Assembly: GCF_000337355.1 (NCBI RefSeq)
Contig: NZ_AOJH01000035.1
Span: 5,341-53,090 of the forward strand
Origin: Halorubrum kocurii JCM 14978
GTDB lineage: Archaea; Halobacteriota; Halobacteria; Halobacteriales; Haloferacaceae
Length of the DNA: 47,750 nt
Direction: 5' to 3'
In this document: one piece after another, positions 40,169-47,613 of the stretch
Position numbering within the stretch: the stretch's first letter is position 1
Layout: each line of letters begins with the position of its first letter
Position numbers and translations under genes: made by a program
Notes under the pieces: generated by a model
Databases searched by the model: none
Told to the model about the DNA's origin: nothing
The model's input: the letters and a program-made list of their open reading frames with translations, nothing else

Positions 40169-41533
40169 TTATATTCCACCGAGACTGACCAGCACTCCGA
40201 GTAAGATGAGCACGGCTACGACGACCGTGCCGACGGCGAGTAGCGTGTTCTCCATCGCTTTCTCGTAGAACGGCATCGACTCGTACTCTTCGCGGAACGC
40301 GTCCCGGTTCTCCGCGTCGTAGAAGTACTTGGTCTTGAACGCGAACCGCTCGGTCACCGCGCACCCGGTACAGACGGGAGTGCCCTCCAACCGCTCGGTC
40401 TTGATATGCGAGTCGCAGTTGATACTCCCGCAGTTCGCACAGTACGTGTAGTCGTTATTGGGTCCGGCTGTATCACAGTGAACACACTGATGAATCCCGT
40501 CTTCGCTCGTCACGCGTGACGGTCCCGCCGCGAAGTACTCGTACGGATACGCGTACTCCCGCAGTTCAGTCGTGTGTCGTACCTGCGGGAGATACACCGG
40601 TTCGATCGACTGTACTGAGACGTCGGAGCTCTTCGGTTCGCACGTTTTCGTGTACGTGACGTTGTTGTCTCCCGTGTAGGAGACCGTCGTCGTGTGGCGT
40701 TCTCTGAGCCGGTCGACAGCCCAGTCTTTGTACTCGGTCTGCGTCTGCCCGAATCGTCGCTCTTCGATGGTATCGTACAGCTTCTTGAACTGCTCCGTGT
40801 CGAGATCGACGGTCGCGTGGAGGTTCTCTACCACCAGATCCGAGACGTCTTCTCCCGCGTTTTTCGGGTGGCCGCGTTCGGTGTGGGCAACTAACTGAGA
40901 CCGGTCGTTGACCCGGTGAATCACGCCGACCGACGTTTCGAAGACCGCGTTTGTGTCCGCTGTCACAGCAACGACCGGCCGGAACGTAATTTGAGAATGT
41001 GGATCGGGGAGATCCGCTGACTCGATGTTGTCGATGTCGTGGAACGCTTCCTTGACGGGTGCCGTCACCGACGTCGCCGGATCGTACGGCCGGAGCGTCT
41101 CGTCGCACAGGATTTCTATCCGACCGTTGTACAGGTCCAACCCGATCTCGTCAGCGATCTCACGCAGGTCCTCGCCGTCGATGAGCTCGATCGGGTACGG
41201 GTCGTCGTTCCGCCGCAGCCGCTGGGCGTAGTCGATGGCCGGGCCGGTGAATCGACCGGTCGTTGCCACCATCCCGCGTTTCGGCCCATCGAACTCGAAG
41301 GTTGCAATCGCTGAGTGCAGTTTCTGCACGACTGGCCGCCCGACTGTTCCCGTGTGCTTACACTCGATGACAATCCCTCTCCGGGTTCCGTCAACGACCT
41401 CTTCCATCAGGATATCGCGCCCCTCGTCGGCCGTCCGTTCCGCCTGCCGGACGTTCTCGTACCCGAGGTTCCGGAAGACGTCCTCCATCACGTCCTCGAA
41501 CTCGAATCCGGAGAGATCATCGAGGACAGACAT
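40169..41533 (-). CDS. Membrane-anchored Mrr-like restriction endonuclease
   Basis: 454 residues. The N-terminal domain is an Mrr-type PD-(D/E)XK nuclease: SGFEFEDVMEDVFRNLGYEN, Asp40 in DEGRD, Glu57 and Lys59 in IVIECKH, and VVQKLHSAIATF as the Gln-containing helix. A middle region without a recognised fold (about 140-340) is followed by a double zinc ribbon (CVHCDTAG, CANCGSINCDSH, VCTGC). One membrane helix (LLAVGTVVVAVLILLGVLVS) comes just before the end. Mrr enzymes cut modified DNA; a membrane anchor is unusual and could aim it at incoming DNA. It is the first gene inside the presumed island. Confidence 0.85.
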   Translation of the reverse strand: MSVLDDLSGFEFEDVMEDVFRNLGYENVRQAERTADEGRDILMEEVVDGTRRGIVIECKHTGTVGRPVVQKLHSAIATFEFDGPKRGMVATTGRFTGPAIDYAQRLRRNDDPYPIELIDGEDLREIADEIGLDLYNGRIEILCDETLRPYDPATSVTAPVKEAFHDIDNIESADLPDPHSQITFRPVVAVTADTNAVFETSVGVIHRVNDRSQLVAHTERGHPKNAGEDVSDLVVENLHATVDLDTEQFKKLYDTIEERRFGQTQTEYKDWAVDRLRERHTTTVSYTGDNNVTYTKTCEPKSSDVSVQSIEPVYLPQVRHTTELREYAYPYEYFAAGPSRVTSEDGIHQCVHCDTAGPNNDYTYCANCGSINCDSHIKTERLEGTPVCTGCAVTERFAFKTKYFYDAENRDAFREEYESMPFYEKAMENTLLAVGTVVVAVLILLGVLVSLGGI

Positions 41534-41784: not shown

Positions 41785-44067
41785 CTATGACCTGCCGAGA
41801 AGCCGAGAGAGGAACCCGCTTGACTCGTCAGCGTTGCTGTCGTCGGTTTCGTTTTCTACTGAGTGTTCTGGCCGTGTCTCGGTCTCCGCGGGATTCCCGA
41901 GAAGATCTTCGACGGAGTACCCGATCCATTCTGCGAACTCGTTCGGTGCGCCGATGTACACGCTCGTTGAGGACTTCTCCGACATGAACCGCTTAGGGAG
42001 TCGCTTCTCGTAGTCGTACACCTCGTACTCCTCGCGGTCGAAATCAGCCGTGATCGCGTCGGGCTCCGACTCGAACGTGACGCGGCCGCCCTGAATGTCG
42101 CGCTGCCATTTGAGCCGCCCCGTGTCGTACGTTTTCTCAGCAGGTTCGTCGGCAGGGAAGTACTCCGGTTGCTCTCTTCCGGCCTCTTTGTAGAACTCCC
42201 GAACGATACGGCGAACGTCTTCGATCGTGCCGTTTCCGTCGGTCCACGGTTTGTCGGTGAGCATGCGTCGCGCGACGTAACTGAAGATCGGATTCTGCCG
42301 TTCGAGCACGTCTGCGAGGTCTTCTTGCGCCTCGCGGAATCCCGGATCCTCTGGGTTTGACGGGAACGACACGTCCATGCTGAGAATCTTCATTCTGTTC
42401 CGGAACTCAGATTTCGGGAGCGCATCGTTCGTCGTGAAAATCAGGCACGGCTGATCGACGCTCGTCGGCGTCCAATCGCCCCAGTAGTTCCGGATCGGGC
42501 TCCACCGCTGTATCTTCTCTTTCTCCGCGTCAATGATAGCGTAGGGGAAGCTCGTGTTCCACTCACGAATCCCGCGGATCTCTTTGACGCCGACGTCGTC
42601 GGCGTCCACCCCGGAAATCACGGTGTTGTCGGACACCAGTCGGAGGATGTACTCGGTGAGTTTGTCCTTCCCAGCGTCGCTCTTCCCTTCGATGTACAGG
42701 TGCTGCAGGACGTTATCGAGTGTGCGTGACGGCGATGATAACGCTTCGGCGTACTGGTTTGCGAACGGGGCCCAGAACCCGTAGAGGAACGCCTCGTACA
42801 TCTGTGCCATCACCGCCGTCTCGGACTGCGTGTGGCCGTGATTTTCCACGGTCTCGATGTAGTCCTCGATCGTTTCGAGGCAGTGATCCAACACCGCAGG
42901 AGTCGGTTCCTCGGTAGCGACGAGAATCATCTCATCTTGCTCACCGATCACGACTTGCTCCGCGTCCGGCAACACCGTCATTGTCGGAATCGCCGTCGAT
43001 TCCTTCACCTGCGTGTTGTATGCGCTGAGCGGCGCGGTGATGCTGTGATCCTCAATTGTCGCGCCGCGATCGCGGAGACTCGCCCCGAACTCGTCCGCCG
43101 TGTCTTTATCGACCTTGCTCGTCCCTATCCGTATCCGCTCGTCGGGCGTCCTGACACGAGGGCGATCGAGCGTGTCCGTCAGCCCGGTTTCGTGCTCTGA
43201 TTCGACGAGCCCCACGTCTGGTTCCGTCTCCTCGTCGTCGGGTTCGTCGGAGTCCTCGCTTTCGGTCTCTTCTGGTTCGACGACGGTTCGATCAGCAGTG
43301 TCGGGGTCTTCGACGAACGCGACTGTTTCCTCGGCCTCGTCAGGATCATCGACGACGGCCGTGACGTGGTCTGCGACCGCTTTCAGATCCTCGACCGCGT
43401 CCTGATTGAGTGCCGCAGTGTCACTCACGTCGAGGTCGCCGGCTCCGACCCAGTACTCGATCCGATTTTCACGCTCTTCGGGAGAGTCCGCATCTTCGAG
43501 CGCTTCGACCAGTCCCTCGAGCAGCGTCTGGCTACTGTACCCCTCTCGGTATTGATCGATGAACCGTTCGAACGACTCGTCCAACTCCGTGCCGAGTTCG
43601 GTTGTCATCACCGAGATCTGGTTCGTATGGTACTCCCACGAATTCCGCGACAGATTCGCCGATCCTTGAACGAGTTTCACCGTGTCGTCCGGCATGACGA
43701 TCCGGTAGATCTTCGAGTGTACTGTCTTCCGATTCTTCAGACGCACAACGAGCCGGTCGTCCTGCCGGAGCTGTACCAATGACCGAGCCGTCGCCACCTC
43801 GTTCACCTGACCGGCGTAATCGTCGGCGTTCCCGATGAGCACGTCGAGCGACCCGATACCGTACTCGGTCAGCATCTGCACCATCAGTTCAGGCGTCTCC
43901 GCGTACGTCACTGCGTCCACGTGGTCTGCGCCTTCGAACAACTCTAAGAAGTCATCACGGCTTTTCACCATCGCTAACCGGTACTTCGCCGCACCTGACC
44001 CGTAGAATTCTGGCATATCTGCGAACCGATCAAACGAGATGTTCGCCGTCAGTTCGTCCATAAACAT
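41785..44067 (-). CDS. PLD-type nuclease fused to SF3-like P-loop ATPase
   Basis: 760 residues. N-terminal PLD domain: His117 and Lys119 in KTVHSKIYRIV, followed by VKLVQGSANLSRNSWEYHTN, one HKD-type active site. A long acidic linker (240-310, Glu/Asp-rich) and an unassigned domain (310-450) follow. Then comes an ATPase: Walker A EGKSDAGKDKLTEY (460-473), Walker B FPYAIIDAEK (507-516), a sensor CLIFTTNDAL (541-550) and an arginine-finger-like FRNRMK (555-560), as in phage/plasmid SF3 helicases. A C-terminal winged-helix-like part is likely (VYIGAPNEFAEWIG). One HKD implies a dimer. It may be an anti-phage effector or a replication protein of the integrated element. Confidence 0.8.
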   Translation of the reverse strand: MFMDELTANISFDRFADMPEFYGSGAAKYRLAMVKSRDDFLELFEGADHVDAVTYAETPELMVQMLTEYGIGSLDVLIGNADDYAGQVNEVATARSLVQLRQDDRLVVRLKNRKTVHSKIYRIVMPDDTVKLVQGSANLSRNSWEYHTNQISVMTTELGTELDESFERFIDQYREGYSSQTLLEGLVEALEDADSPEERENRIEYWVGAGDLDVSDTAALNQDAVEDLKAVADHVTAVVDDPDEAEETVAFVEDPDTADRTVVEPEETESEDSDEPDDEETEPDVGLVESEHETGLTDTLDRPRVRTPDERIRIGTSKVDKDTADEFGASLRDRGATIEDHSITAPLSAYNTQVKESTAIPTMTVLPDAEQVVIGEQDEMILVATEEPTPAVLDHCLETIEDYIETVENHGHTQSETAVMAQMYEAFLYGFWAPFANQYAEALSSPSRTLDNVLQHLYIEGKSDAGKDKLTEYILRLVSDNTVISGVDADDVGVKEIRGIREWNTSFPYAIIDAEKEKIQRWSPIRNYWGDWTPTSVDQPCLIFTTNDALPKSEFRNRMKILSMDVSFPSNPEDPGFREAQEDLADVLERQNPIFSYVARRMLTDKPWTDGNGTIEDVRRIVREFYKEAGREQPEYFPADEPAEKTYDTGRLKWQRDIQGGRVTFESEPDAITADFDREEYEVYDYEKRLPKRFMSEKSSTSVYIGAPNEFAEWIGYSVEDLLGNPAETETRPEHSVENETDDSNADESSGFLSRLLGRS

Positions 44068-44805: not shown

Positions 44806-45885
44806 TCAATTCCCTCCCCAGCGCGTACGTGTACTGGCGAATGGGTCGGTTACTGACTCTGCTCGTTTTTTGTGCTCGATATCGACCGCTTCGTACCCAC
44901 GATCGGTCTCACGGATATCATACTGTAGTAGGTCGTCCTCAGTGGGGAATCGACCTGCAACGTCGCTCACGTGGAAAAACACATCATCAGTCACCTCACT
45001 TGTCGAAATGAACCCATACCCATCCTCCGGATTAGAGTGGTCAACAACACCGACATCGTCCCGAGCCACGAATTCGTCGTTCAGCTGCTGTCCACCAGTT
45101 GGTGCTGAGGAGTCGTCCATGTCAGCGGTTTTGTTCGAGTGCCCCGTGTGACTCGCTCTGTGGCTGAGGAGATCCATCGGCGCATCGAACTCATCGCCAC
45201 AGTCAGCGCAGCGATGCACTGTTTTCTCCTCTGGCTCCGGATCATGAGTGCGTTCGACATGGCGGTCTACTGCGTGCTGAGAGTGATATGTGCGGTCACA
45301 GTGGTCGCACCCGAAGCGAGCACCATCGGGCCGCTCAGTACACGACGTTAGATGAGACATCAACTCACGCTCCCTAGCAAATGGCTCCGCACAAAACTCA
45401 CACTCGTAGTTTTTCTCAAGATTGTTTTGCCCGCCTTCGTCTTCGTGTATGTCCCTCGTAGTCGGGTTCGAACTATCGACGTTCGAGTCGACACTCTCGC
45501 CCGTCTCGCTCGTTTGGGCCCTCTCGGACTCAGACCCTTCTGGCGTGTTCAAACCCGAAGCGGAGAGTACCGTTCCGATCGCCTGTTTGCGCTCCTCCGA
45601 AAGTGATTCTCGAACCTTGCTAAGCAACCAGAGAGTTCGCTTAACCGTCTCAACGGGTGCCTCAGCAGACGGTGGGTCTGTAATCGTCGCCGCTGTTTCT
45701 CGATGCTCTGATGGATCGGTATCGACAGGGGTTAGCTCACGAGTCAGAATCCCGACTATCACCAACGCTTCCGGGACCGTCGAATCTGGGAGTGTCTCTA
45801 GAACCTTTTTGAATCGGTTCCCTACCTGGTAATCAGTACGGTCCGGATTTCGGATTCGATCTCCACCGTCATATTGGAGGGACAT
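44806..45885 (-). CDS. Protein with three C2H2-type zinc fingers and a cold-shock domain
   Basis: 359 residues. An N-terminal helical region (1-110, FKKVLETLPDSTVPEALVIV) and a disordered acidic stretch lead to three zinc fingers. Finger 1 is C162/C165/H178/C182; finger 2 is C193/C196/H209/H214; finger 3 is C226/C229/H242/H246. The C-terminal cold-shock domain (about 275-336) has GYGFISTSEVTDDVFFHVSD, carrying both RNP-type aromatic motifs. Both halves bind nucleic acid. A palindrome overlaps its promoter. Known archaeal C2H2 proteins are generally small with one or two fingers, so this build is unusual. Confidence 0.85.
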   Translation of the reverse strand: MSLQYDGGDRIRNPDRTDYQVGNRFKKVLETLPDSTVPEALVIVGILTRELTPVDTDPSEHRETAATITDPPSAEAPVETVKRTLWLLSKVRESLSEERKQAIGTVLSASGLNTPEGSESERAQTSETGESVDSNVDSSNPTTRDIHEDEGGQNNLEKNYECEFCAEPFARERELMSHLTSCTERPDGARFGCDHCDRTYHSQHAVDRHVERTHDPEPEEKTVHRCADCGDEFDAPMDLLSHRASHTGHSNKTADMDDSSAPTGGQQLNDEFVARDDVGVVDHSNPEDGYGFISTSEVTDDVFFHVSDVAGRFPTEDDLLQYDIRETDRGYEAVDIEHKKRAESVTDPFASTRTRWGGN

Positions 45886-45911: not shown

Positions 45912-45924
45912 ACATATAATATGT
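45912..45924. promoter_or_regulatory. Perfect palindrome over the promoter of the zinc-finger/cold-shock gene
   Basis: ACATATAATATGT, 6-bp arms around one base, 27-39 bases before the ATG at 45885. It both contains the TATA-like core and could be an operator, for instance for self-control. Confidence 0.5.
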
Positions 45925-45991: not shown

Positions 45992-46540
45992 TCAGTCCCC
46001 GCTGTACCGTCCACCAAATGTAGCGAAGTGGTCAACGAGTTCCGCCTGCGCCGCCTCGAGCTCGTCGACAGATCCGACATGCTTGTAGAAAACCGTGTTC
46101 GAGTCGAACGGATTACCGGCAGTTGAAAGCGACCAGTCTTCCTCTCGCGTGCTGTCAACAACCGCTTGGTCATCAGCTTCGTCAGCACCTTTGATTTTGT
46201 AGCCGAACGCTCGTAATGCACCGTCGACATCGGTCCGATCGTAGTCCGTCGGGGACATCCAATACAGGTGTACATTCAGTCGCTGCCTGCGATCCGCCGG
46301 TGCCTTCGGCCCCTCCATCTCGTGATTAATGCGATGGATCGTGAGCGCCGACCCGGTGCTTCGATTGGTCTTCACGCTAATATCCGTCTCCGGGTCGAAA
46401 AGTTCCGGCTGTTCGTCGACCAACGCTTGGTCGAACACGCGGAGGCGTGCCTCGATCTCGTCTTCAAACTGCGAAATCAGTTGGAGTGCCTTCAGGTAGC
46501 GATCCGAACGCAACCCCTCGGTCAGAAACTCGTCGGTCAT
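45992..46540 (-). CDS. Uncharacterised partner of the adjacent nuclease
   Basis: 182 residues, MTDEFLTEGLRSDRYLKALQ onward. N-terminal helices are followed by strands such as ALTIHRINHEMEGPK and RLNVHLYWMSPTDYDRTDVD, then an acidic helical region and a final helix (VDELEAAQAELVDHFATFGG). I do not recognise a family. It overlaps the upstream nuclease gene by four bases (ATGA), so the two are made together and probably act as a pair. Small alpha/beta partners in such pairs are sometimes immunity or specificity subunits. Confidence 0.7.
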   Translation of the reverse strand: MTDEFLTEGLRSDRYLKALQLISQFEDEIEARLRVFDQALVDEQPELFDPETDISVKTNRSTGSALTIHRINHEMEGPKAPADRRQRLNVHLYWMSPTDYDRTDVDGALRAFGYKIKGADEADDQAVVDSTREEDWSLSTAGNPFDSNTVFYKHVGSVDELEAAQAELVDHFATFGGRYSGD

Positions 46541-47613
46541 AGGCCGAGTCTCGACCGGAGATATGTTAACTGTTCGTCGAGTGCGTCTGAGACAACGATC
46601 GGTCGCACCGTCTCAACGACACCTGATGGATCGACCATTCGGTCGATCACCGGCTGCGATTGGAAGCCCGAGATGTGCTGTTCAACCGTCGCACAGAAGA
46701 GATACGCGTTGGCTGCCCAGTGATCGTCGACAACATCACCTCGCTGTAGTACCGCTCGAACCGCTGTAGCGACGTCCTGCCAGTACAGGACGGTAATTGG
46801 TCCCGATTCGTCCCACACGATCTCACGCGTCCCGTCCGCGTGCTCATCGATACTTGGCGACACAACTGCGTTGAGACGACCACGCTGCCGCTTTGGTAAC
46901 AGGAGGATGTGATCCCACCGCACGTCATCGTAGTGCCGTTCGATGAGCCGCGCCGTCTCCGGCGTTTTTCGATAGTTCTCATCGCCGAGTTTCACTTCGA
47001 TTGAGACCCCGTAGTCGGGATGCCGAACCAGAATATCTGCCCGGCGTCGCCCACCGTCTTCTTTCGGGAGTCGAGCCTCACGGAGTACTTTGTTCGGTGG
47101 TTCGTCACTTGGAACACCAAACAATTCTCTGACGAGCGCCGCAGATGGTTCAAGTAACTGCGCGAGCCACTGCGACCAGTCTAGTTCACCGCTCGGTCGT
47201 ACTGGCCCCCTAAGCGTTCGCGTCCCCGTTATGTCCGCAGCCAACGGGTCCGTCTCGAAGGGAGCCGCGGATGTTGCCCACGACTCGTTGGATTGTTCAA
47301 GTAGATCAGCGATCTCAATTGCATTCTGGTGGCCCGCTTTACTGAAGGTATCCCACCACGTATCGAGTTCGGTCCACCACTCGGTCAATTGGTCTTGGTT
47401 CGTAACTTGTAGGGGTGGACTACAGAACAGCGTGGACTTTGAGTTCAATCCGGCTTGGGCCACTGAATCAATCGCTTCCCACTCCTGTCCCGGTTCCCGG
47501 AGTACTCTCTCCCGATCAGACCGCTGCGTCCCCGCACCGCTTCCGGAGCCGAGGTACGCCTCAAACCACGGATCAAGACGTGCCCAGTCACTCGGCTCAA
47601 CGTCGCTACTCAC
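46537..47613 (-). CDS. PD-(D/E)XK nuclease-domain protein
   Basis: 358 residues from a GTG (VSSDVEPSDWARLDPW). The N-terminal half is Trp-rich and has no assigned fold. The nuclease core lies in the middle: Asp193 in RRRADILVRHPDYG, Glu206 and Lys208 in VSIEVKLGDENYRK, with a preceding helix SAALVRELFGV that could supply a first acidic residue. The rest (VRWDHILLLPKRQRGRLNAV and onward) is an alpha/beta continuation. Likely cuts DNA; the target is unknown. It forms a two-gene unit with the protein at 45992 and diverges from the gene at 47707. Confidence 0.8.
   Translation of the reverse strand: MSSDVEPSDWARLDPWFEAYLGSGSGAGTQRSDRERVLREPGQEWEAIDSVAQAGLNSKSTLFCSPPLQVTNQDQLTEWWTELDTWWDTFSKAGHQNAIEIADLLEQSNESWATSAAPFETDPLAADITGTRTLRGPVRPSGELDWSQWLAQLLEPSAALVRELFGVPSDEPPNKVLREARLPKEDGGRRRADILVRHPDYGVSIEVKLGDENYRKTPETARLIERHYDDVRWDHILLLPKRQRGRLNAVVSPSIDEHADGTREIVWDESGPITVLYWQDVATAVRAVLQRGDVVDDHWAANAYLFCATVEQHISGFQSQPVIDRMVDPSGVVETVRPIVVSDALDEQLTYLRSRLGL

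Follow-up and report, generated by a model that had tools for sequence, protein, structure and literature searches.

Cold-shock domains (CSDs) and C2H2 zinc fingers bind nucleic acids in most of their well-studied relatives, and fingers of the PF00096 type can equally well have DNA or protein as ligand. To our knowledge only a few post-transcriptional regulators have been described in haloarchaea (e.g. Lsm and small zinc proteins). Lin28, a known protein that combines a CSD with zinc-binding modules, carries the CSD at its N-terminus and, after it, two CCHC knuckles of the retroviral type (PMC3759924). Predicted zinc-finger proteins of archaea and archaeal viruses are mostly shorter than 100 aa, and about 74% of them have one finger and about 20% two (PMC3541406), so that three or more fingers are left to about 6% of those predicted in archaea. 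AFV1p06, the sole characterised archaeal-virus C2H2 finger found, binds DNA (PMC3541406). A CSD-type protein is also encoded by the accessory ORF of retron Se72 (PMC6868368).

The window, the whole 47,750-nt stretch of DNA that was analysed, lies at the end of a 53-kb contig from a 3.6-Mb Halorubrum genome. The initial annotation placed here an archaeal protein combining three C2H2 fingers with a CSD. Its coordinates and minus strand matched exactly the open reading frame found, which starts with ATG and encodes 359 aa, and its archaeal nature agrees with the finding of the gene in Halorubrum. The presence of both domain types in one protein was confirmed by PF00313 and zf-C2H2_4 matches above the Pfam cut-offs. 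The conserved N-terminal domain of ~110 aa and the C-terminal tail were not part of that annotation. The gene is organised as follows.

44806..45885, minus strand: whole gene, ATG start; 359-aa protein with N-domain, three C2H2/C2HC fingers, CSD and tail
45541..45885, minus strand: new N-terminal domain, residues 1-115; conserved, 13 full-length copies in 391 genomes
45415..45540, minus strand: acidic, fast-evolving linker, residues 116-157; dN/dS > 1 where computable, pLDDT < 50
45340..45402, minus strand: finger 1, C2HC, residues 162-182; ligands C162, C165, H178, C182
45244..45309, minus strand: finger 2, C2H2, residues 193-214; ligands C193, C196, H209, H214
45148..45210, minus strand: finger 3, C2H2, residues 226-246; ligands C226, C229, H242, H246
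44875..45051, minus strand: CSD, residues 279-337; PF00313, RNP1-like DGYGFI and RNP2-like DVFFH
44809..44844, minus strand: C-terminal signature tail PFASTRTRWGGN, residues 348-359; near-invariant in all eight full-length members

The pattern C-x2-C-x12-H-x3-5-[HC], with a hydrophobic core, occurs three times in the 359-aa protein. When the residues were shuffled 20,000 times, one match appeared in 13 shuffles and two matches in none. The finger region scores above the Pfam cut-off with zf-C2H2_4 (PF13894; E 1.1e-6, 29.2 bits against 27) and with zf-C2H2_jaz, a dsRNA-type model (25.3 against 22.6 bits). The last ligand of finger 1 is a cysteine, as had been noticed before. All 12 ligand positions are kept in each of the eight full-length members of the family described below, with H/C swaps at the last ligand; the ligand sets are complete and zinc binding is predicted. 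A classical-fold finger with one altered ligand is likewise found in AFV1p06 and other archaeal and archaeal-virus C2H2 proteins (PMC3541406). Those proteins however are short and mostly have one or two fingers, which agrees with the earlier statement that multi-finger C2H2 proteins are unusual in archaea, and a CSD fusion was not seen described there.

The fingers share with classical C2H2 proteins (PF00096/PF13894) the ligand pattern, the aromatic and aliphatic core and a modelled beta-beta-alpha fold. The differences are the C2HC variants, the archaeal host and the spacing: the linkers between the fingers are 10 and 11 residues long and lack TGEKP, whereas classical DNA arrays have ~7. In addition, the contact positions of finger 1 differ among the members in the alignment. 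The long linkers without TGEKP and the variable contacts fit structured nucleic acid better than a fixed DNA word. They also speak against a DNA-binding transcription regulator, in which the fingers would read an island promoter or operator and the CSD would stabilise the opened strand in a Y-box-like manner. We consider such a regulator unlikely, even with the classical finger fold, the matches of the finger profile to DNA-binding arrays such as ZNF568 and CTCF, and the DNA binding of AFV1p06 in its favour.

The CSD matches PF00313 with an E-value of 6.8e-9 (35.9 bits against a Pfam cut-off of 27), and the cut-off is passed too at loci L023-L026. It is the same domain as in CspA/CspB and YB-1, a five-stranded barrel with RNP1/RNP2-like motifs, and residues Y290, F292, F303 and H305, which correspond to RNP1/RNP2 positions in CspB, are kept in all members. 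In contrast to those proteins, the CSD here is a single module near the C-terminus of a 359-aa protein, the equivalent of W8 is replaced, and the equivalents of K7 and K13 are acidic residues. As read from the alignment, W8 and F9 of CspB become H283 and S284 in the window protein. The tryptophan equivalent is lost from the CSD, and the next aromatic is also lost in the window protein's own clade; these losses could weaken ssRNA binding. The entire protein is very acidic, with 75 D/E versus 37 K/R, and haloarchaeal proteins are acidic in general.

An AlphaFold model was computed from an input of five sequences and has low overall confidence (mean pLDDT 54). The model predicts three beta-beta-alpha fingers (pLDDT ~75 for fingers 1 and 2 and ~60 for finger 3, with the finger region at ~60-83) and a five-stranded CSD barrel (pLDDT ~65). 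Foldseek matched the CSD model to B. caldolyticus Csp (TM 0.85) and YB-1 (TM 0.74) and the finger model to CTCF/ZFAT fingers. Among the 60 best profile matches there was no PDB chain spanning both fingers and CSD. The initial annotation had likened the build to Lin28. The likeness holds for a CSD plus zinc-binding modules in one protein; kinship is not supported, since the fingers are of another type, the modules come in another order and further domains are present. Three C-x2-C-x12-H-x3-5-[HC] fingers stand in place of the C-x2-C-x4-H-x4-C knuckles, the fingers (162-246) precede the CSD (279-337), and the N-domain and tail are additional. Lin28 is thus at best an analogy of working, and the fusion protein is not a member of its family.

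Against three close orthologues, the dN/dS of the whole gene is 0.18-0.28 and that of the fingers and CSD mostly well below 0.4, while purifying selection is not visible in the linker 116-157. Because the whole-gene ratio is ~0.2, the domains are conserved and the linker is unconstrained, the substitution pattern indicates a functional protein in which the domains, not the spacers, matter. The tail follows the pattern FASTRxRWG, which in 146 genomes was found at a plausible protein C-terminus only in the finger-CSD fusion family. A docking motif common to other proteins was rejected, since a FASTRxRW search of 146 genomes returned the family plus chance-like or out-of-frame matches.

A profile of the fingers and CSD, searched against 391 haloarchaeal genomes, retrieved eight full-length members, all with E <= 1.6e-76. 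The next E-value was 3e-21, and from there on the matches that were read were all one-finger CSD proteins or plain CspA-type genes. Six members are from Halorubrum, one from another genus of the same family (genome G240) and one from another family (G386), and the ligands and core are kept down to 36% identity. The finger-CSD fusion is a true, conserved and rare gene family. Its occurrence is patchy, with six Halorubrum carriers against at least 41 Halorubrum genomes in the sample. The proposed rarity of the fusion in archaea is therefore borne out by the homology search (8/391 sampled haloarchaeal genomes); the fusion is not common, and no earlier description of it was found in the literature searched. 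A scan of 84,980 species, which required conserved peptides and would miss distant relatives, found relatives only in Halorubrum. There are no paralogues in the same genome, where the only matches are ordinary CspA-type proteins. A viral origin was rejected: no relatives were present in IMG/VR viral contigs or phages, and the fusion was absent from the plasmids searched. One candidate C2H2-CSD protein (L018) was also rejected, being an ordinary CspA gene whose reading had run on into the codons upstream of it.

A separate small haloarchaeal family has one finger and a CSD (L057/L112 and L058/L113). The order of finger and CSD is the same as in the fusion protein, but these proteins have one finger, ~180 aa, no N-domain and another tail. 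Finger and CSD are hence fused in two or more different builds among haloarchaea, and one such build is encoded beside the candidate defence genes PDC-M45. At L112 (9780-11582) the one-finger CSD gene is directly upstream of homologues of PDC-M45C and PDC-M45A (dual-OB), a candidate phage defence, and its product is a possible extra component of the PDC-M45 system.

The N-domain gave no matches in Pfam, NCBIfam or PHROGs. A fold search against the PDB using a predicted model of low-to-moderate confidence (pLDDT 63) gave no match either (best E 0.55). It is a new domain without known relatives in these four collections. Besides the 13 full-length copies that its profile found in the 391 genomes, there are two closely related copies, L110 and L111. 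The N-domain is seen in five arrangements: joined to three fingers and a CSD; joined to two finger-like repeats, of which the first lacks one ligand in L027, and a different tail (L027, L028); joined to a CSD without fingers (L045); followed by nothing but a tail (L044, L046); and by itself (L047). Because the N-domain recurs with two fingers, with CSD only, or alone or with another tail, it appears to be the core, and the binders exchangeable. At L110 and L111 the N-domain gene adjoins DnaK-like and DnaJ-like genes and a NERD/UvrD-type helicase, and in L111 it is interrupted by a transposase-like gene with a zinc-ribbon-like N-terminus. At L108 (5309-10168, minus strand) an N-domain protein is followed by an RNase_H_2/HHH protein and a DEAD helicase with a MrfA zinc-binding domain, the latter two resembling the MrfA/MrfB repair pair.

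The sequence upstream of the gene contains a promoter element.

45913..45923, minus strand: TATA box (CATATTATATG), ~33 nt upstream of the ATG

An AT-rich TATA element is present at about the same distance in six Halorubrum loci. With this element ~33 nt before the ATG, the gene is predicted to have its own promoter and a separate, almost leaderless transcript. Four close orthologues share an AT-rich near-palindrome (CACAAACATATTATATGTGAAC) that overlaps the TATA box and differs by a single base in L022, as would suit the fingers of a transcription regulator. L023 and L024 however do not preserve it, and it did not come up as an inverted repeat. A conserved palindromic operator was rejected because the near-palindrome is not kept beyond the closest orthologues, and no operator-like sequence other than the TATA box is conserved in the promoter. 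The regulator would also lack a common neighbour to regulate across the loci; over the compared loci no partner gene is conserved with the family.

The gene lies in a stretch of lower GC content, 48-60% compared with mostly 62-76% earlier in the window. An integrase is found within 7 kb at six of 11 independent N-domain loci (0.51 expected; P 3.3e-6) and at four of five independent full-length loci (P 2.2e-5), where locus independence and the 7-kb limit are choices fixed after the loci were inspected and the integrase background is 6-20 Pfam matches per genome. The same tRNA-Glu (CTC) is upstream of the full-length member in G386 and of a two-finger member in G057, which are of different genera and have the same flanking genes. 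No attachment-site repeats were found beside tRNA-Glu (L025, L028) or tRNA-Arg (L107). The family is associated with mobile elements, and we read this as carriage by integrative elements. At L027 (5792-7621) the 3' end of tRNA-Ala and a 24-nt exact copy of it 1.7 kb away flank a tyrosine integrase, forming a tiny integrated element. The strong proximity to tyrosine integrases and the tRNA sites at some loci could also point to a helper of the integrative element, one that binds ssDNA or attachment-site DNA while the element excises, transfers or integrates. We regard this as very improbable: cargo genes likewise cluster near integrases, the integrases at different loci fall in different clusters, and the 1.8-kb stretch at L027 holds the integrase, not the N-domain gene.

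Since both domain types do so in most well-studied relatives, the fusion protein very probably binds nucleic acid. The reading we prefer, though tentatively, is that of a stand-alone accessory nucleic-acid-binding protein, with RNA or single-stranded nucleic acid as its main target, acting as a post-transcriptional regulator or RNA chaperone. The long linkers, the variable finger 1 contacts and the kept CSD aromatics favour such a target over a fixed DNA word. We infer the binding and regulatory steps as follows. The gene would have moved from one haloarchaeon to another on islands and integrative elements. With its OB-fold barrel and most of the aromatic contact residues kept, the CSD would grip single-stranded RNA or DNA, and the three widely spaced fingers would in addition hold nucleic acid that is structured or duplex. 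The N-domain, as the shared core, may self-associate or contact a cellular partner, and the FASTRxRWG tail may serve as a docking peptide. Because the gene is autonomous, with its own promoter and no fixed partner, the protein would work with host components through these two parts, as a regulator or RNA chaperone for the host or the element, and not as a classical promoter-reading zinc-finger array. The outcome may be regulation, defence or element maintenance. The initial annotation suggested that the protein may sense foreign RNA or control the island; its surroundings are mobile and of restriction type, but the family has no constant partner gene and its promoter no conserved operator-like sequence beyond the TATA box. 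A broader proposal, and a highly doubtful one, is a modular family of nucleic-acid sensors borne by integrative elements, in which the N-domain swaps finger and CSD readers and which would serve in defence or in control at the RNA level, as an archaeal equivalent, independent in origin, of RNA regulators of the Lin28 type. A mobile family that mounts eukaryote-style fingers and a cold-shock barrel on a core that is new and exchangeable gives archaeal regulation or defence at the RNA level a clear point of entry for testing, and an example of the way in which nucleic-acid readers get shuffled.

The neighbours of the gene in the window include several nuclease-like genes.

40169-41533: Mrr-type nuclease (Mrr_cat E 4.6e-24)
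41785-44067, minus strand: 760-aa protein with a weak PLD/NgoFVII-type match (E 3e-4)
46537-47613 and 45992-46540, minus strand: gene pair (cl2-cl3) with a 4-nt overlap; 358 aa and 182 aa, without profile matches

The first member of the pair (46537-47613) reads as PD-(D/E)XK-like from an ADILV...EVK motif without a profile match, and the pair (45992-47613) looks like an undescribed nuclease module. In such restriction-type surroundings the fusion protein might be an anti-virus sensor or effector: on meeting nucleic acid that is invading or damaged, it would switch on the adjacent nucleases or stop growth. The position of the one-finger relative at L112 next to the candidate-defence homologues, and the CSD protein of retron Se72 as a CSD relative in a similarly mobile, defence-linked setting, are consistent with such a role, which we nevertheless think quite unlikely. 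Among ten window neighbours PADLOC recognised a generic Mrr-like nuclease only and no known anti-phage system. The nuclease genes next to it are not retained across the family, and several members lie beside ordinary chromosomal genes (L027, L028). The model of the retron Se72 effector (NF038236) gives the fusion protein 24.9 bits, below its cut-off of 82; the Se72 protein has no fingers, and no reverse transcriptase was recognised among the neighbours scanned.

The cl2-cl3 pair is upstream of the fusion gene and beside it in the four closest genomes, and occurs elsewhere, in other genera, without the gene; cl3 has 56-63% identity in several other haloarchaeal genera, where the pair is intact (also L118, L119 and L120). 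An operon with the pair as a general rule was rejected, as the pair elsewhere lacks the gene (within 1.5-kb flanks) and the gene has its own TATA. An Mrr gene is also near the fusion gene at L023. The Mrr proteins are 88% identical and the fusion proteins 52%, and because these identities differ the two appear to be separate modules that meet in the same islands. The protein encoded at 41785-44067 is 96-98% identical in two other Halorubrum species. It has a C-terminal P-loop-like GKSDAGKDKL stretch after the PLD-type N-terminus and may be an ATPase fused to a PLD nuclease. Upstream of the nuclease pair, the same Halorubrum island contains a RecQ-like helicase gene and, after it, an ADP-ribosylglycohydrolase-like gene (L022, 1626-4775; L021, 3131-6280; names read from sequence), and in L021 the helicase gene is in two frames.
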